Assembly: GCA_028688955.1 (NCBI GenBank)
Contig: JAQTXD010000014.1
Location: 17,991-55,487 of the forward strand
From: Desulfuromonadaceae bacterium
GTDB taxonomy: Bacteria > Desulfobacterota > Desulfuromonadia > Geobacterales > Pseudopelobacteraceae
Reading direction: 5' to 3'
DNA length: 37,497 bases
Both the position numbers and the translations under genes were made by a program. Positions within the stretch are counted from its first letter, which is position 1. Every line of letters begins with the position of its first letter. The notes below the pieces were generated by a model that was not told the origin of the DNA, did no database searches, and worked only from the letters and a program-made list of their open reading frames with translations. Shown piece by piece: positions 9,313 to 17,863 of the stretch.

Positions 9313-11166
9313 TCACGCACGTGCTAGTTCTGTTCCCTCTACAACCCTCCTCAGAACATCACGAAACTGGTCAAAACGGTACGGTTTGCTGATTAGCCCG
9401 GCTATATCCCGACGAAATAAATTTGACGAAATATCTTCATCACCAAAACCGCTGGATATAATAATTGGCAGCTCGGGTTTTAGTTTTTTCAGTTCAATGA
9501 ACAGTTCATAACCGTTCATTGTTGGCATACCCACGTCAGTAACGACCAGGGAGATGTCGCTGGAATTTTTATGATACAACTCTAGTGCTTCCTTGCCATT
9601 TGATGCTTCAATAACCGTAAAGCCAAGATTTAGTAAAAAGGCTTTTGCAATCAGCATTAGCCGGTCTTCGTCTTCTATCAGCAGGACTGTCCCGTGACCG
9701 GTCCATGGAGTTGGTAAAGCCTCCTGAACGGCATTATTTCCAGCAGACTCAACGTCTGGGATAGGCAAATATATTTTAAAGGTTGTACCCTGTCCCGACT
9801 GACTAAAAAGCTGTAATGCTCCTCCATGGGAAGTTATAATACCGAGCACTGCCGACATGCCCAATCCACGCCCGGTAAATTTTGTTGTATAAAAAGGCTC
9901 GAAAATTCTCTGTCGCGTTTCATTACTCATGCCGCACCCATTATCGGTCACTTCCAGGCACGTATACCAACCGGGGGAAATGGCTTTACCCTGATGATCT
10001 AAAGCTGGCTTACTCTGTTGTGTGATTGCAATCTTTGAAATTGATACCAGAATTTCGCCTTGAGAGTCACCAATAGCCTCTGATGCGTTAACGATCAGGT
10101 TCAAGACTATTTGCCGGATTTGACTGGCATCACCTGACATTTGAGGTATGTTTGGCGGACTTTCAAGTTTTATTACCGAATTATGAGGTAAGGAGGCTTT
10201 CAACATTTTAACCATTTCAAACACCAGATCTACAAAATCAAAGCTGGAACTGACTATTTGTGCCTTCCCTGCATACGTCAGCATCTGACGGCACAGTCCT
10301 GCCGCGCGATCAACAGCTTTTTCCATCTCTGGGATGTAATTCTTAGCGGTTTCAAAATCCATTCTTATCAGAGAGCAATATCCCATTATTATCGCCAGAA
10401 TATTGTTAAAATCATGGGCGATACCACCTGTCAAGACACCGAGGCTCTCAAGCTTTTGTGCAAAGACAAGCTGCTGCTCAAGATTCTTCTGATGCTCTTC
10501 AGCATCCAGCCGCTCGATTTCACCGGCAGCACTTATTCCTACTATTTTCATAATTGATTCAGCCATCGCGCGGTTCGTTACTGGCCGGCGACTGATAACA
10601 GCAATGAGTCCGATCGGCTGGTGGGCCTGGCTCCAGAGTGTCACTCCGATATAACTTTCTGCCCGCAGATCCTGAAGTACCTGGTCGTTCGGAAACAAAT
10701 GGCATACCCTGGAGGGGAAACAGCAGACCGTTTTACCAACAACATTGCCGCACGGGGTATCTTTGAGGGCATAGGTTACGTTGTCCTCAAATGAGCCATC
10801 ACACCATACTGCAACCGTCCGGGCTGTTAATCCGTCACCTTCAAGGCGGTCGATGCAGACAAAGTCCATATCAAGGCTTTTTGCCAAGTAGTGTGCCAGT
10901 CTATTAAAGTATGGCTCGTCAAGAGGTCTTGAGCTGGTCTGCTCCAAAAAGTTGAGAAATTCATCATTCAGGGTTTTCTCTGCAAGCATTTCTTCTTTAA
11001 CTTTACGGAGTTCCGCGTTTTGTAATTCCAGCTCTACCTGATGAACCTGCAACTCGTGCAGTAACCGTCTAACGTCCTGTTCGCCGTATTCAACTCCTGC
11101 AGATGGTGACAGCGTATCGACAGCTTTCGTCCGTAATTTAGTGTCGTTGTTAATTATGTCACTCAT
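9313..11166 (-). CDS. GAF-domain hybrid histidine kinase with C-terminal receiver
   Basis: A soluble 617-residue hybrid kinase. Residues about 30-70 form a coiled coil (HELQVHQVELELQNAEL), about 70-220 a GAF-type sensor domain, and about 230-300 the dimerisation domain with phospho-His251 in GGIAHDFNN. The ATPase domain has the N box around Asn360, the DNGCGM loop (408-413) and GRGLGMS. A receiver follows with the acidic pocket in IEDED, phospho-Asp544 in VVTDVGMP and Lys594. No transmembrane segment is seen. It begins 21 bp after the CheB-CheR fusion with a strong GGAGG site, so both are one operon. The output is unknown; no DNA-binding domain is present. Confidence 0.92.
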   Translation of the reverse strand: MSDIINNDTKLRTKAVDTLSPSAGVEYGEQDVRRLLHELQVHQVELELQNAELRKVKEEMLAEKTLNDEFLNFLEQTSSRPLDEPYFNRLAHYLAKSLDMDFVCIDRLEGDGLTARTVAVWCDGSFEDNVTYALKDTPCGNVVGKTVCCFPSRVCHLFPNDQVLQDLRAESYIGVTLWSQAHQPIGLIAVISRRPVTNRAMAESIMKIVGISAAGEIERLDAEEHQKNLEQQLVFAQKLESLGVLTGGIAHDFNNILAIIMGYCSLIRMDFETAKNYIPEMEKAVDRAAGLCRQMLTYAGKAQIVSSSFDFVDLVFEMVKMLKASLPHNSVIKLESPPNIPQMSGDASQIRQIVLNLIVNASEAIGDSQGEILVSISKIAITQQSKPALDHQGKAISPGWYTCLEVTDNGCGMSNETRQRIFEPFYTTKFTGRGLGMSAVLGIITSHGGALQLFSQSGQGTTFKIYLPIPDVESAGNNAVQEALPTPWTGHGTVLLIEDEDRLMLIAKAFLLNLGFTVIEASNGKEALELYHKNSSDISLVVTDVGMPTMNGYELFIELKKLKPELPIIISSGFGDEDISSNLFRRDIAGLISKPYRFDQFRDVLRRVVEGTELARA

Positions 11167-11187: not shown

Positions 11188-13827
11188 TTAAATGTGCCTT
11201 TCGAGCTTTGCAATTTTCTCCAGCAATTCTTCTTCCACTTTCCGTGAGGCGGTAATATCGTTACAGGTAATCACTACGCCATCGATCATTTTGTCAAGGG
11301 TGCGATACGGCATTATGCGTACCAGGAACCAGCGACCATCCAAAGTTGCCACTTGGTTTTCGACTGAAATCAGTTTTCGGAGCACATCCTGCACATGATC
11401 ATACAAGTCCGGATAATTCAGGTTTGAAACAATATCAGTCAGCGGTCTTCCAACATCTCCGGGGATAAGTTTAAAAAGCCGGTTGGCTCCGGTGGTGAAC
11501 CTTCTTACCTGAAGATGGTTATCCAGGAAGATTGTCGCTATCTCGGTGCTGTTAAGCAGGTTTTCCATGTCATTATGCACCCGCATGAAATCACTCAGCC
11601 GGAGAGATTGTTCTGCGTTTACACTTTGAAGCTCTTCGTTCATAGATTGCATTTCTTCTTTCGAAGTCGTCAGTTCTTCGTTGGTGGATTGCAATTCCTC
11701 ATTGGTGGACTGAAGTTCTTCATTCGTAGATTTAAGTTCTTCATGGGCAGTCTGCATCTCTTCGCGGGTGGTACGTGTTTCTTCTTTTGCTTTCTGCAGT
11801 TCCTGCTCAAGCTCTTCAACATATTTGCTGTCGGAAGCTGCTCCTGATCGTCTGCGGCGTGTCTTTGCTGACAGAATTACATCTCTGAAGGCAATCATAA
11901 CCAAGCCACGTAACGCTCCAGGTGTTTCAATTTTCATGAACGTCATATCCACCGTCAGCATTTTATCGTTGCTACCATTTACAACTCCTCGTGCAGTGAC
12001 CGGCTCCATTTGTTGCAAGGCCTGGTTAAAGCCTTTGTTCAGCTCATAGCGTAACCCGTCTCTCACCATAGCAAAAATATTCACGTTGTTTTTACCTGCT
12101 GCCGGCTCAAGATACATGCCGGTTCGCCCGCTTATATAGACAACGTCCCCCTGGCCATTTACAAAAACCGTTGGTGCCGAAAAGTGTTGCAGTACGAGCT
12201 TGTCGGCCAACTGCTGAAAATTATCGGCAGTTCTTTGCATATGGGACTCCTGTGGTAAAGACAGTGAAGAGATTGAGGTCAACGAGGTTGGGAACGATAC
12301 GAAATCATTTCTGTATTGTGTATTTTTACGCAAATAAAGCTTTGAACGGATATTTATTGGTGAGAACAAATCTGTATGAGAACCAATAGTCTCGGCATTG
12401 CCAAGAAACAGTAGTCCACCGGGATTAATACTGTAATGGAACAGCGGCAGCAATTTCTTCTGAAGGTCAGCGGTCAGATATATCAGCACATTTCGACAGA
12501 TCAGGATATCGAGCTTCGTGAAGGGTGGATCTATTATAACGTCCTGCAGGGCATAGATGATCATTTCCCGGATGTCTGCGCATACCTGATACTGAGCACC
12601 GTTTTTAACAAAGAAACGTTTCAGCCGTGCGGGCGAAACATTGGCTTCTATTGAAGCGGGATAGATTCCCCTTCTGGCTTTTCCAATGGCATCGGCATCA
12701 AGGTCAGTGGCAAAAATCTGCAAAGAAAAATGGCTCGGGATCTGAATATTATCAAGCGCCTCTTTAAATAGTATTGCCAACGAAAAGGCTTCTTCTCCTG
12801 TCGAGCACCCGCATGACCACGCTCGCAGTGTAGCACCTTCGGGATATCGCGCCATGACCTTTGGCAGTGCTTCGGTGCTCAGATCCTCCCACGAGTTTGG
12901 GTCACGAAAAAAATTGGTTACCCCGATAAGCAGTTCCTTAAAAAGCAGTTCCACTTCATGGGGGTTCTTTTGAAGAAACCTGGTATAATCCGCAATTGAT
13001 TCCATCTTGTGAATTTGCATTCGTCTTTCAACTCGGCGGTAAACGGAAGCAGGTTTGTAGAGAGAAAAGTCATGTTTAGTTTTGGTTCTAAGGAGATTCG
13101 TAATTTGATCAAAGTTGCTTTGTCCCCTGTCGAACAGACTTTGCTCAGTCCTGCACTGAGAAGCAATAGTCCCAATAAAGTTACAGATTCGTGCCGGGAG
13201 CTCCTCTGCCGGCGCAACTATGTCGGCGAGTCCGGCATCAATAACACTCGTGGGCATACTGTTATATTTTGCGGATGTAGGTTCCTGCGCAAGCGTTAAC
13301 CCACCCTGCTCCTTGATAGCAGCAAAACCCGAAGTCCCGTCTGATCCCATGCCTGAAAGGATTACGCCAATACTCTGTACACCGCGTTCTTCAGCTAAAG
13401 AGCGTAGGAATGCGTTTATCGGCAGTCTCACTCCATGGTCGGTTGTAGAATCCAGCAGGTGAAGAGTCCGATCCCTGATTATCATATCCCTGTTGGGTGG
13501 TATGACATAGACGTGATCTGGGTACACCTTCGTCAAGCCGTTAACCTGTTGGACTTTCATGATGGTAGAGCGTTGGAGAATTTCGGGAAGATTACCGGTG
13601 TGATTGGGTAAAAGATGTTGAATAACAACAAAAGCCATTCTGCAATCTCTGGGTACATGGCTCAGGAATAGTTCCAATGCCTCAAGTCCGCCTGCAGATG
13701 TGCCTATACCAACTATGGGAAAATCAGTTCCAACCTTTTGAGGTTTGGCAACGGTACCAGAATCCTGAGTTACTTTCTGTTTGAGTGATTCTGACTTTTC
13801 GACAGGCTTCTTTTCACTGGTAGTCAT
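11188..13827 (-). CDS. CheB-CheR-PAS fusion protein
   Basis: An 879-residue fusion of chemoreceptor methylesterase and methyltransferase. CheB (about 35-225) has the catalytic triad Ser44 (GTSAGG), His71 (QHLLPNH) and Asp163 (GMGSDGT). CheR (about 235-500) has the all-alpha domain (YKPASVYRRVERRMQ) and the SAM site (SCGCSTGEEAFS, 338-349). A PAS-like domain (about 545-650), a long coiled coil (about 667-745) with repeated STNEELQ units and a second PAS domain (about 750-865) follow. There is no N-terminal receiver, so CheB is not controlled in the classical way. GGGGA lies 8 bases before the ATG. Such fusions often pair with a hybrid kinase, as here, and may serve a signalling path other than flagellar chemotaxis. 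Confidence 0.93.
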   Translation of the reverse strand: MTTSEKKPVEKSESLKQKVTQDSGTVAKPQKVGTDFPIVGIGTSAGGLEALELFLSHVPRDCRMAFVVIQHLLPNHTGNLPEILQRSTIMKVQQVNGLTKVYPDHVYVIPPNRDMIIRDRTLHLLDSTTDHGVRLPINAFLRSLAEERGVQSIGVILSGMGSDGTSGFAAIKEQGGLTLAQEPTSAKYNSMPTSVIDAGLADIVAPAEELPARICNFIGTIASQCRTEQSLFDRGQSNFDQITNLLRTKTKHDFSLYKPASVYRRVERRMQIHKMESIADYTRFLQKNPHEVELLFKELLIGVTNFFRDPNSWEDLSTEALPKVMARYPEGATLRAWSCGCSTGEEAFSLAILFKEALDNIQIPSHFSLQIFATDLDADAIGKARRGIYPASIEANVSPARLKRFFVKNGAQYQVCADIREMIIYALQDVIIDPPFTKLDILICRNVLIYLTADLQKKLLPLFHYSINPGGLLFLGNAETIGSHTDLFSPINIRSKLYLRKNTQYRNDFVSFPTSLTSISSLSLPQESHMQRTADNFQQLADKLVLQHFSAPTVFVNGQGDVVYISGRTGMYLEPAAGKNNVNIFAMVRDGLRYELNKGFNQALQQMEPVTARGVVNGSNDKMLTVDMTFMKIETPGALRGLVMIAFRDVILSAKTRRRRSGAASDSKYVEELEQELQKAKEETRTTREEMQTAHEELKSTNEELQSTNEELQSTNEELTTSKEEMQSMNEELQSVNAEQSLRLSDFMRVHNDMENLLNSTEIATIFLDNHLQVRRFTTGANRLFKLIPGDVGRPLTDIVSNLNYPDLYDHVQDVLRKLISVENQVATLDGRWFLVRIMPYRTLDKMIDGVVITCNDITASRKVEEELLEKIAKLERHI

Positions 13828-15466: not shown

Positions 15467-15591
15467 TACGTACCCCATGTAATCAGATATAAAAAACAAC
15501 TAACACAGGCTCCGGAGAGAGTCAAGTTCAGCCAGACCCGGATGAAATGCCCATTTATTTTTTGCACGCGGCTATGCGTAGCGAAAAAGCA

Positions 15592-15600
15592 TGTTATACT
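15592..15600 (+). promoter_or_regulatory. extended -10 promoter element for cheV
   Basis: TGTTATACT (extended -10 with TATACT at 15595-15600) lies 34 bases before the cheV ATG, in the region between divergent trpE and cheV. A -35 at 17 bp is poor (CTATGC), which is acceptable for an extended -10 promoter. Confidence 0.45.
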
Positions 15601-15634
15601 GACCCATCATTTTGTTATGAAAGGTGCCAATTCC

Positions 15635-16576
15635 ATGCAACAAAGTAAAATACTTCTCGAGAGCGATACAAACGAGCTGGAAATTGTTGAATTCAGAATA
15701 GACGAGATGGATTGGCATGGCAATGTACTACCCTGCTATTATGGCGTCAATGTTGCTAAAGTGCGCGAGATTATCCGCCTGCCGCAAATGTCGAGAGTGG
15801 TAAACGCCAAACCGGGTGTCGAGGGCATGATCAAGCTGCGGGATAAGGTTATCACAATCATAAATCTTGCAACCGTACTCAATAAGTCGGTCGGTGATCT
15901 GGTGGCGGACCGGGTTGTTGTCCTTGAATTCAATAACCTGATGGTGGGGGTACTTGTTCATTCCGTTTCCCGAATTTACAGAATTTCATGGAAAAATGTT
16001 GAACCTCCCGCGTCATCTGTCCACAGTGACGAGGTTACTGGTCTCGTCAAGATGGATGACAGGATAATTCTTGTTCTTGATTTTGAAAAAATTGTTGCCG
16101 AACTTTGTTCTGAAAGCGCCCTCAAACCGCTTGACTCCATTACAATGCAACGTGCCGAGCTGAACCCGGAGCGTGCCCAGAAAACCGTGATTGTTGCCGA
16201 TGATTCGGTTTTTATTCGCAAGACTCTCTGCAGTAGTCTCAGGTCGGCAGGGTATACGGTTGTGGAGGCGGAAAACGGTGCCGAAGCGTGGACAATAATA
16301 CAGCAAACCATGCAGCAGGCCGCCGCACAGGGAGATAAGTTCAGTGACCATATCAGCATGTTGATTACTGATGTGGAAATGCCCCAGATGGACGGCCTGC
16401 ATCTTACCTCTCTGGTGCGTAAGGAAGATACATTGAAGGATCTTCCCGTTGCGATTTTTTCATCTCTTGCATCAGAGGACAACAAGCGTAAATGGATTGG
16501 GCTGGGTGCCAACTGCATTCTGACCAAACCGGACTTGCCGAAACTTGTCGATGTCGTCGATGAACTGACGATGTAA
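15635..16576 (+). CDS. cheV: chemotaxis coupling protein CheV (CheW-REC)
   Basis: A 313-residue CheV-type protein that couples chemoreceptors to the kinase CheA and is itself tuned by phosphorylation. Residues about 15-165 form a CheW domain (YYGVNVAKVREIIRLP, GVEGMIKLRDKVI). Residues about 183-310 form a receiver with acidic Asp189/Asp190, phospho-Asp246 in LITDVEMP and Lys298. The start ATG 15635 has AAAGGTG 8 bases upstream; a longer frame from 15542 would add residues with no family resemblance and include the promoter. It stands alone on the plus strand beside the CheB-CheR locus, but no cheA or receptor is in the window. Confidence 0.93.
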   Translation: MQQSKILLESDTNELEIVEFRIDEMDWHGNVLPCYYGVNVAKVREIIRLPQMSRVVNAKPGVEGMIKLRDKVITIINLATVLNKSVGDLVADRVVVLEFNNLMVGVLVHSVSRIYRISWKNVEPPASSVHSDEVTGLVKMDDRIILVLDFEKIVAELCSESALKPLDSITMQRAELNPERAQKTVIVADDSVFIRKTLCSSLRSAGYTVVEAENGAEAWTIIQQTMQQAAAQGDKFSDHISMLITDVEMPQMDGLHLTSLVRKEDTLKDLPVAIFSSLASEDNKRKWIGLGANCILTKPDLPKLVDVVDELTM

Positions 16577-16583
16577 TTCGCAC

Positions 16584-16608
16584 TTGACAACGGGGATGTC
16601 TCTATGAT
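16584..16608 (+). promoter_or_regulatory. candidate promoter of the aroF leader
   Basis: A perfect TTGACA (16584-16589) just after the cheV stop is followed by TATGAT (16603-16608), but the spacer is only 13 bp. At 16-17 bp the hexamers are poor (GATTTA, ATTTAG). If this promoter is used, transcription would begin close to the leader ATG at 16621, which could explain why that ATG has no clear ribosome-binding site. Confidence 0.4.
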
Positions 16609-16620
16609 TTAGTGCGTCAC

Positions 16621-16707
16621 ATGAACTCAAATCGCTTCTATACAGCGTTTAACTTTTATTCCTGGTTCGGCTTTTTTTTCAGGCCGTCTGCCCGGGTAAT
16701 CGTGTAA
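16621..16707 (+). CDS. aromatic-rich leader peptide of aroF (attenuator)
   Basis: A short frame of 28 codons plus TAA, too short for normal gene calling. Ten codons are aromatic: Phe at 6, 10, 12, 16, 18, 19 and 20, Tyr at 7 and 13, Trp at 15, all within residues 6-20. It lies upstream of a terminator hairpin in front of aroF, whose enzyme begins the synthesis of exactly these amino acids. Stalling of the ribosome at these codons would leave the segment at 16685-16693 free for the antiterminator helix. There is no good ribosome-binding site; an in-frame GTG at 16612 or a near-leaderless mRNA are possible explanations. The function is inferred from layout and composition. Confidence 0.75.
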
Positions 16708-16767
16708 GCGCGGAAGCAATCACACGCAACCACAAACCGGGGCAGACGAAAGTCTCCCCGGTTTTTT
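16685..16767 (+). promoter_or_regulatory. transcription attenuator of aroF (antiterminator/terminator switch)
   Basis: Two exclusive pairings are visible. In the antiterminator, 16685-16693 (CGTCTGCCC) pairs perfectly with 16740-16748 (GGGCAGACG), enclosing a small 5-bp hairpin (16701-16705 with 16722-16726). In the terminator, 16735-16747 pairs with 16752-16763. The two share 16740-16747. The upstream strand overlaps codons 22-25 of the leader peptide, so a ribosome that reaches the stop codon would cover it and let the terminator form. Confidence 0.75.
16735..16767 (+). terminator. intrinsic terminator in the aroF leader
   Basis: A 12-bp stem (16735-16747 with 16752-16763, one bulged C at 16743), a GAAA tetraloop and a run of six T (16762-16767). 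It can also end the cheV transcript. It lies 77 bases before the aroF start. Confidence 0.9.
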
Positions 16768-16792
16768 GCTGTCTGACATGATCAGTTCAGCC

Positions 16793-16817
16793 AGGGCCGG
16801 GGGAAACTTCCGGCCTT
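16793..16817 (+). other. strong hairpin in the aroF 5' untranslated region
   Basis: An 11-bp stem (16793-16803 with 16807-16817, three wobble pairs) with an AAA loop lies between the attenuator and the ribosome site of aroF (GGAAAGGA near 16830). It may stabilise the mRNA or tune translation. No T-run follows, so it is not a terminator. Confidence 0.55.
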
Positions 16818-16843
16818 GTCTGTTTGTGGGAAAGGATCAGGGA

Positions 16844-17863
16844 ATGATTATTGTAATGAAAGCGGGAGCTGCACAGAAAGACAAGGATGAGGTGTTGAGG
16901 CGTATCAAGGAACTGGGTTACACATCGCATGTGATTCATGGCACCACACGTGATGTAATTGGTGCCATTGGTGACGAACGGGGCAAAGCGGCCCTGCAGG
17001 CGCTCGACTCTCTGCATGGTGTGGAGAATGTTGTTCCGATCCTGCAGCCCTATAAACTGGCTTCATTTGAAGTAAAGAGGGAGCCAAGTGTGGTGCGAAT
17101 CAGTGACAATGTTGCCATTGGCGGTTCCCAGGTTGTCATTATGGCCGGTCCGTGCTCGGTGGAAAGTGAAGAGCAGATTCTTGAATCCGCTCTGGCGGTT
17201 AAAAAATCAGGTGCTCATATACTCCGTGGTGGCGCATTTAAGCCGCGCACATCTCCCTATTCATTTCAGGGACTTGAAGAGGAAGGGCTTAAGCTGCTTG
17301 CCAAGGCTCGCGACTTGACCGGACTCCCGTTTGTTACAGAAGTTATCAATCCGGAAACAGCTGATATGGTTGCAGCCTACGCCGATGTTCTCCAGATTGG
17401 TGCCCGCAACTCACAGAACTTTGCGCTGCTCAAAAAAGTCGGCCAGCTTGGTAAGCCGGTGCTGCTGAAGCGGGGTATGGCGATGACTATCCAGGAGCTT
17501 TTGATGAGCGCTGAATACATCATGAGCGAAGGAAACCAGTCTGTTATACTCTGTGAACGCGGCATCCGTACTTTTGAAACGGCGACCCGTAACACCCTTG
17601 ACTTGTCGGCAATTCCCGTGTTGAAAGGGAAAACACATCTTCCCGTTGTTATTGATCCATCCCACGGAACCGGCAATCACCATTATGTTGCGCCAATGTG
17701 CTATGCCGCCGTTGCGGCAGGAGCTGACGGATTGATTGTGGAGGTACATCCTGATCCGGAACATGCCTCATCGGACGGTGCCCAGTCATTGAAACCTATC
17801 AAATTTGATGAAATGATGAAAAAATTACGACTGTTTGCCGACGCGGGAGGAAGAACTCTTTAG
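16844..17863 (+). CDS. aroF: 3-deoxy-7-phosphoheptulonate synthase (DAHP synthase, class I beta)
   Basis: DAHP synthase (339 aa) condenses phosphoenolpyruvate and erythrose 4-phosphate, the entry step of the shikimate pathway. It is of the TM0343 type: residues 1 to about 70 form a ferredoxin-like/ACT-like regulatory domain ([13 protein letters not shown]), and about 75-339 the barrel. Catalytic and metal-site segments are visible: [42 protein letters not shown] and IDPSHGTG. The start ATG 16844 has GGAAAGGA upstream; the longer frame from 16766 would run through the attenuator T-run. The N-terminal domain suggests allosteric inhibition by an aromatic amino acid, adding to the attenuator. Confidence 0.96.

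Follow-up and report, generated by a model that had tools for sequence, protein, structure and literature searches.

The trp and pheA attenuators of enterobacteria each sense one amino acid, have a leader peptide led by a Shine-Dalgarno (SD) sequence, control a terminal-branch gene and contain a clear 1:2 protector. They share with the locus described here a leader rich in codons for the pathway product, an antiterminator and a terminator that exclude each other, and a strand 2 placed right after the key codons. The aroR-aroF attenuator of Corynebacterium glutamicum was reportedly described by Neshat in 2014. A leader-peptide attenuator of C. glutamicum aroF is reported in two sources (PMC11802643; PMC4046766, both in their accessible parts), the former of which names the trp and pheA attenuators and states that the aroR leader, with Phe-Tyr-Phe, raises aroF transcription on Phe limitation, Tyr being without effect. 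Likened by description alone, this system resembles ours in placing an aromatic leader peptide before a DAHP synthase gene and in a read-through that rises on stalling, as we propose here; it differs in having Phe-Tyr-Phe only, with no Trp named, and in belonging to an actinobacterium.

The enterobacterial his attenuator, described for the E. coli leader as AB, CD and EF against BC and DE (PMC10989985, accessible part), resembles the two-hairpin layout described below, most of all in its Rokubacteria-phylum form; unlike it, the Desulfuromonadia element has a first hairpin that is itself a terminator. Predicted elements before aroF are also on record, namely the uORFC-13-1 motif of Acholeplasma, a Phe-sensing upstream open reading frame (uORF) with a terminator, in a paper that also cites an earlier E. 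coli proposal (PMC8632094, available section), and an RNA motif before Shewanella aroF (PMC2659441, available section). Compared by description, the Acholeplasma motif differs from our element in its phylum, its Phe codon content (one or more), its ribosome binding site and its structure.

Closest to the present locus, a short RNA element was predicted in 2009 in Geobacteraceae, 5′ of one of the two Thermotoga maritima-type DAHP synthase genes of Geobacter; the accessible text lists it among possible promoters or riboswitches that ‘may participate in regulation’, and is silent on any leader peptide, terminator or mechanism (PMC2700814). It is probably the aroF attenuator described here. Identity to the T. 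maritima enzyme, tried as a guide to which paralog was meant, was not decisive (50.9%, against 51.2% for the paralog). A sequence-only reading of our locus had known of no described case in this group of bacteria, which, within the literature searched, stands for the mechanism, of which we found no description, and fails for the element, printed as a prediction in 2009 (PMC2700814, accessible text). In the literature searched, most subscription journals lying outside the search, we found no description of this attenuator in Desulfuromonadia, nor of its three-amino-acid peptide, leaderless start or multi-phylum spread. Relevant predictions may be contained in the comparative studies of Vitreschak, Lyubetsky and colleagues.

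The locus lies in a window of 37,497 nucleotides from a Desulfuromonadaceae bacterium, the window being the whole stretch of DNA analysed, by whose positions all features are given. For the sampled genomes we use group names of our own assignment (Geobacterales for the order, Desulfuromonadia for the class, and Methylomirabilota, with Geobacteraceae, Desulfuromonadales and Candidatus Rokuibacteriota taken from record titles), and Rokubacteria phylum denotes the phylum to which a Candidatus Rokuibacteriota genome belongs. The parts of the locus are as follows.

15542-16576: CheV-like gene with CheW and receiver domains, 5′ neighbour of the aroF leader region
16584-16589, plus strand: −35 hexamer TTGACA, 31 nt 5′ of the leader ATG; TTGAC[A/T] shared by all 71 distinct loci of the Geobacterales
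16605-16613, plus strand: extended −10, TG-a-TTTAGT, spacer 18, from base counts in 71 loci aligned on TTGACA
16621-16623, plus strand: leader start codon and, from promoter geometry, predicted transcription start, 7 nt past the −10 hexamer
16621-16707, plus strand: gene of the leader peptide, with 10 aromatic codons among its 28; ATG at 16621, TAA at 16705-16707
16668-16671, plus strand: segment 1, CGGC in codons 16-17, tentatively a protector strand, on the weak basis of pairing with 16683-16686
16685-16693, plus strand: segment 2, antiterminator 5′ strand with the GUCUGCCC core, within codons 22-25
16740-16748, plus strand: segment 3, antiterminator 3′ strand, overlapping the terminator 5′ arm
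16735-16767, plus strand: intrinsic terminator T1, U-tract at 16762-16767, ΔG −21.7
16752-16763, plus strand: segment 4, T1 3′ arm, by inspection
16792-16818, plus strand: second hairpin T2, arms 16792-16803 and 16807-16818, with a weak T-rich tail
16831-16836, plus strand: AAAGGA, likely ribosome binding site of aroF
16844-17863, plus strand: aroF, type I-beta 3-deoxy-7-phosphoheptulonate (DAHP) synthase, ATG at 16844

We consider it about 90% probable that this element is a ribosome-mediated transcription attenuator of aroF. The sequence-only reading had proposed such a leader-peptide attenuator, and its anatomy was borne out on inspection of the sequence: a 28-codon frame at 16621-16707 with 7 Phe, 2 Tyr and 1 Trp codons in residues 6-20, an intrinsic terminator at 16735-16767, and a perfect 9-bp antiterminator in which CGTCTGCCC (16685-16693) is complementary to GGGCAGACG (16740-16748). 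The 5′ strand of this helix overlaps the end of the leader frame, in codons 22-25, and the 3′ strand is also part of the terminator stem, which pairs AACCGGGG (16735-16742) with CCCCGGTT (16756-16763), continues in an inner AGAC/GTCT and is followed by T6 at 16762-16767. The leader RNA folds with a z-score of −4.2, equalled by none of 200 shuffles. The downstream gene was confirmed as a DAHP synthase by matches above the cut-off of both NCBIfam NF006421 and TIGR01361, by the Pfam domains FXD (ferredoxin-like N-terminal domain) and DAHP_synth_1, and by 51% identity to PDB 1rzm; at the aroF start, an anti-SD duplex of −6 kcal/mol or below is formed in 58 of 77 loci. Elsewhere in the window, as judged by eye, a CheB/CheR fusion adjoins a hybrid histidine kinase (11188-13827 and 9313-11166, minus strand), both genes lying between trpE and a trpG/pabA-like gene.

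Relatives keep the arrangement. In the first 25 Desulfuromonadia loci (the window's own, L004-L026 and L060), at least eight aromatic codons in 15 precede aroF without exception, and a covariance model built from these 25 sequences on the antiterminator pairs only (R1) matched 133 of 141 genomes of the order, including 101 of the 103 good ones. Nearly all matches (130 of 134) lie 68-188 nt (median 80) 5′ of a listed aroF on the same strand; the other four are those in G112 and G139, where the contig ends before a complete aroF, that in G133 and a second copy in G127. Loss of the frame beside a kept aroF, which the sequence-only reading had named as a refutation, was seen at one of the 131 listed aroF places compared (G069), truncated orthologs and a second, ~53% identical paralog being excluded from this comparison. 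In that genome, a close relative (locus L087), the whole leader has been lost, and aroF begins 38 nt past the stop codon of the CheV-like gene. Outside the order, the model matched all 40 class genomes tried, chosen from 136 for having aroF; the position before aroF fits, by eye, in 8 of 8 with a listed aroF place, and a second, weak match (E 0.01-0.02) was returned in 3 of the 40 and likewise in G152.

The window's genome also encodes a paralogous DAHP synthase, which has no aromatic leader. This second type I-beta gene (L002:788-2514) lies, by eye, directly 3′ of a Crp/Fnr-type-looking regulator gene, and for these two reasons the isoenzymes seem to be differently controlled.

The aromatic run of the leader frame is more than chance: none of 1,000 dinucleotide shuffles of the 400 nt 5′ of aroF gave ten or more aromatics in 15 codons, and the six frames of the window hold one other place with as many as eight. 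Among 71 distinct Geobacterales leaders, drawn from 77 loci with the leader-less locus excluded, the median is 28 codons and 11 aromatics (range 7-13). Every one contains Trp, 68 of them exactly once; aligned on this residue, 66 have a preceding Phe and 67 a Gly two residues after. Between near-relative leaders, 550 of 1,315 single codon differences are synonymous, against ~15% expected (the pairs being interdependent), and 278 of the 765 non-synonymous ones remain within Phe, Tyr and Trp, a pattern indicating that the frame is under codon-level selection.

We examined the antiterminator in two alignments. In a MAFFT alignment of 25 sequences, 91.1% of the antiterminator cells were paired, compared to 35-45% with the partners slid, and double changes occurred at four of the nine pairs; an excess of pair types over shuffles was absent in this set (324 of 500). 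RNAalifold selected the helix unprompted. Among 99 distinct sequences aligned to the model, pairing rose to 93.8%, with double changes at seven of nine pairs and none of 500 shuffles matching any of five pairing measures, in an alignment that, being fitted to the covariance model, leans toward structure. Compensatory examples include GUCCACCC with GGGUGGAC and CAUCGACCC with GGGUUGAUG. Taken from these alignments, the antiterminator covaries. For the terminator, covariation was not counted, since some rows had its 3′ arm out of register, and each sequence was folded separately instead: all 100, every one of them model-matched, form a hairpin of −10 kcal/mol or below, with a stem sequence that differs between relatives. 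The antiterminator search of this per-sequence folding gave several U-rich chance helices and was not used as a count. Aligning relatives, as had been suggested alongside the original proposal, thus shows both kept aromatic codons and compensatory changes in the antiterminator helix, and conservation, antiterminator covariation and codon-level selection together support a leader-peptide attenuator before aroF.

These data also bear on whether the leader might be a small hydrophobic functional peptide, its transcript ended by the hairpins and aroF read from its own promoter downstream. The F-W-Y-G-F-Y-F run is strongly conserved, as such a peptide would require, and a Sinorhizobium leader peptide is described as acting in trans (PMC7298713, accessible part). 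Against this, the RNA rather than the peptide persists 3′ of the aromatic run, the GUCUGCCC core being read as R-P-S-A-R in the window and, in another frame, as V-C-P in many other lineages; together with the covarying antiterminator and the 130 of 134 matches that precede aroF, this makes a functional peptide very improbable.

The two alternative structures would equally be expected of a terminator that senses a protein or ligand (a riboswitch, a T-box or an antiterminator protein), the reading frame being incidental. This we judge even less credible, given the codon-level selection on the aromatic codons and the Rfam searches. No Rfam family, amino acid leaders and T-box included, matched at gathering score in the whole window; in 16560-16870, searched to E = 10, there were five weak matches, all scoring far under gathering level, the best to an unrelated microRNA model (E 0.67), and over the loci of ten relatives two tRNAs only. 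Phage records gave no match to 16560-16870.

Upstream of the leader, promoter geometry is uniform in Geobacterales. The distance from TTGAC[A/T] to the ATG is 29, 30, 31 or 32 nt in 2, 18, 38 and 13 of the 71 loci, respectively, and base counts in these loci, aligned on TTGACA, show TG at positions 22-23 and a T-rich/A-rich hexamer at 25-30, that is, an extended −10 with a spacer of 18 that ends 5-8 nt before the ATG. A consensus promoter scan returned no promoter before the leader, having missed TTTAGT, which is without the A demanded at position 2. A pyrimidine immediately precedes the ATG in 70 of 71 loci, an SD-like match lies upstream of it in one, and the start codon is always ATG; the loci cover all 29 genus codes of the order and, being related, are not independent events. 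In sister orders, the geometry was found in none of 48 distinct loci, 23 of which have a strict SD-like match, with starts chosen in favour of SD and including GTG and TTG; a separate SD comparison (30 of the 48 sister-order loci) is biased by starts picked by eye.

With TTGAC[A/T] placed 29-32 nt before the ATG in every locus, the Geobacterales leader mRNA should start at the AUG; it would be leaderless, with +1 at or within ~2 nt of the A. One survey predicts leaderless genes for 8 of the 33 delta-proteobacterial genomes that it covers (PMC3160421, accessible part), and a leader peptide without a ribosome binding site is recorded for ilvBNC of C. glutamicum in a reference title (PMC4046766, accessible part), so that a leaderless leader would be unusual and not unparalleled. 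Because the leaderless start is predicted from promoter geometry, one might instead suppose an upstream start or a short untranslated stretch, with translation by another route. A short untranslated stretch is what leaders of the Rokubacteria phylum suggest, TTGAC, where found (12 of 16), lying 33-40 nt before the ATG. For Geobacterales we regard this as unlikely, as the same geometry recurs in 71 of 71 loci and 29 genus codes despite a spacer whose sequence is unconserved, alongside the −1 pyrimidine, the exclusive use of ATG and the near lack of SD-like matches.

Folding both structures, as the sequence-only reading had advised, gave a different outcome for each ribosome position. RNA free from 16678 before segment 4 is made, the stalled-ribosome case, folds 2:3 (−30.7), and RNA behind a ribosome at the stop codon folds T1 (−21.7). 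Once segment 4 is made with segment 2 free, T1 (−34.1) is favoured over the antiterminator (−32.2) by ~2 kcal/mol, so that the switch must be kinetic and the order of synthesis matters. With no ribosome, the leader likewise folds into 2:3 before segment 4, and the pairing of segment 1 with 16683-16686, present in equilibrium folds, loses to 2:3 at that stage; a trp-type 1:2 protector is therefore poorly supported.

In the attenuator that we propose, RNA polymerase would begin at the leader AUG or no more than about two bases from it, and ribosomes would consequently load on a 5′-terminal AUG without an SD sequence. When charged tRNA for Phe, Tyr or Trp is scarce, the ribosome would stall in the run F-Y-S-W-F-G-F-F-F; a stall that brings about Tyr13 to Phe16 into the A site would leave segment 2 (16685-16693) free to pair with segment 3 (16740-16748), so that no terminator forms and transcription continues into aroF. 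With ample supply of all three, the ribosome would reach the stop codon at 16705 and cover segment 2, segment 3 would pair with segment 4, and transcription would end at 16762-16767. We infer the stalling, the direction of the response and the contribution of each of the three amino acids; the C. glutamicum leader, with a Tyr codon and no Tyr effect, cautions that codons alone do not prove that all three are sensed.

The second hairpin, if a true terminator, would require a release of its own. Of 76 Geobacterales loci, 66 have two terminator-like hairpins, as do 16 of 27 other loci of the class, and on inspection an alternative partner for CCCCGG (16756-16761) would be CCGGGG (16797-16802). 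A his-type six-segment relay would fit, with 1:2, 3:4 and 5:6 and two terminators when OFF, and 2:3 plus 4:5 when ON, the antiterminator releasing segment 4, which would then disrupt the second hairpin too, much as in the E. coli his leader. The case is best made in the Rokubacteria phylum, where, among the 23 of 30 loci in which both hairpins could be placed, a U-tract follows the first hairpin in none and the second in 20, and 4:5 helices of at least 7 bp occur in 20; there, the switch would have to act through 4:5, the U-tract standing only on the second hairpin. Of 70 loci from other classes, 25 could be placed likewise, with a first-hairpin U-tract in 23, a second in 17 and 4:5 pairing over 7 bp or more in 22 (these counts started from the core box, and a few odd rows remain).

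Within-locus 4:5 pairing in 22 other-class loci was stronger than that between loci (−14.6 vs −13.2; 0 of 2,000 permutations). The same signal was absent in Geobacterales (p 0.23), the Rokubacteria phylum (p 0.31) and the sister orders (p 0.62), and a pooled three-group test was significant but mixes lineages. The test took the last two hairpins of each locus and so mis-assigned some rows, the window's own included; arms with palindromic cores (CCATGG, CCGCGG) make 4:5 pairing partly automatic; and the second-hairpin U-tract is weak in Geobacterales. We therefore regard the relay as a tentative proposal, less likely than not, and any role of the second hairpin as tentative too.

Beyond the class, aromatic leaders carrying the GUCUGCCC core extend to other classes of its phylum and to the Rokubacteria phylum. 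When a phylum sample was searched with a Syntrophus AroF, 29 of the best 30 matches belonged to other classes and one (G232) to Desulfuromonadia; 26 of the 30 have at least seven aromatics in 15 codons (shuffles 2.8%), and 40 loci hand-picked over more families include 12 (shuffles 1.1%), so that many aroF genes of the wider phylum are without an aromatic leader. Three leaders from the same phylum as the window (L224, L243 and L247) are aromatic, end in G-G-P-P-V-G and have no GUCUGCCC core, and are perhaps a second or diverged attenuator type. Thirty loci of the Rokubacteria phylum gave at least six aromatics in 17 (shuffles 0.2%) and at least seven in 9 (0%). There, 12 of 16 leaders (among L264-L288) begin with ATGGGC, complementary to the core box, and the start codon itself could serve as segment 1; the distance from TTGAC, where found (12 of 16), to the ATG leaves little room for an SD sequence. 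Two adjacent tandem aroF copies occur in at least 11 of 60 genomes of this phylum, for example G671:C198, G668:C124 and G686:C15.

On an AroF tree of 81 loci, 40 have the aromatic leader, which requires at least nine changes, whereas 200 shuffles needed 27 on average and never fewer than 18. The leader is confined to one clade of 59 rows; the remaining 22 rows, mostly Bacillota and with the paralog among them, are without it. We read the few changes and the single clade as the leader and aroF travelling together. A wider reading, to which we give a little less than even odds, is that type I-beta DAHP synthase is controlled, in two phyla or more, by a single family of homologous attenuators. 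Its RNA core (GUCUGCCC with GGGC[AG]GAC) would hardly change, since segment 3 has to stay complementary to the segments on either side, and the leader peptide would pass into another reading frame beyond the core; the family would have moved between a his-type relay in the Rokubacteria phylum, where the second hairpin alone terminates, and a double terminator in Desulfuromonadia, its leader gene would have gained a leaderless start in Geobacterales, and it would sense Phe, Tyr and Trp by one peptide at the first step of the pathway.

The novelty of the element is limited by the 2009 Geobacter prediction and by the C. glutamicum aroF attenuator. What is new is the leaderless geometry in Geobacterales, the occurrence of GUCUGCCC-core leaders in other classes and the Rokubacteria phylum and, tentatively, a second hairpin suggesting a his-type relay. 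The attenuator would give a biotechnologically weighty, metal-reducing group of bacteria a defined control of the aromatic pathway, and would probably explain a conserved element printed in 2009 without a mechanism. It would also supply a natural set of variants of one attenuator, with and without an SD sequence and in trp-like and his-like layouts. With these, one could test how initiation on a leaderless mRNA stays in step with RNA polymerase during attenuation, and how attenuator architectures convert into one another.
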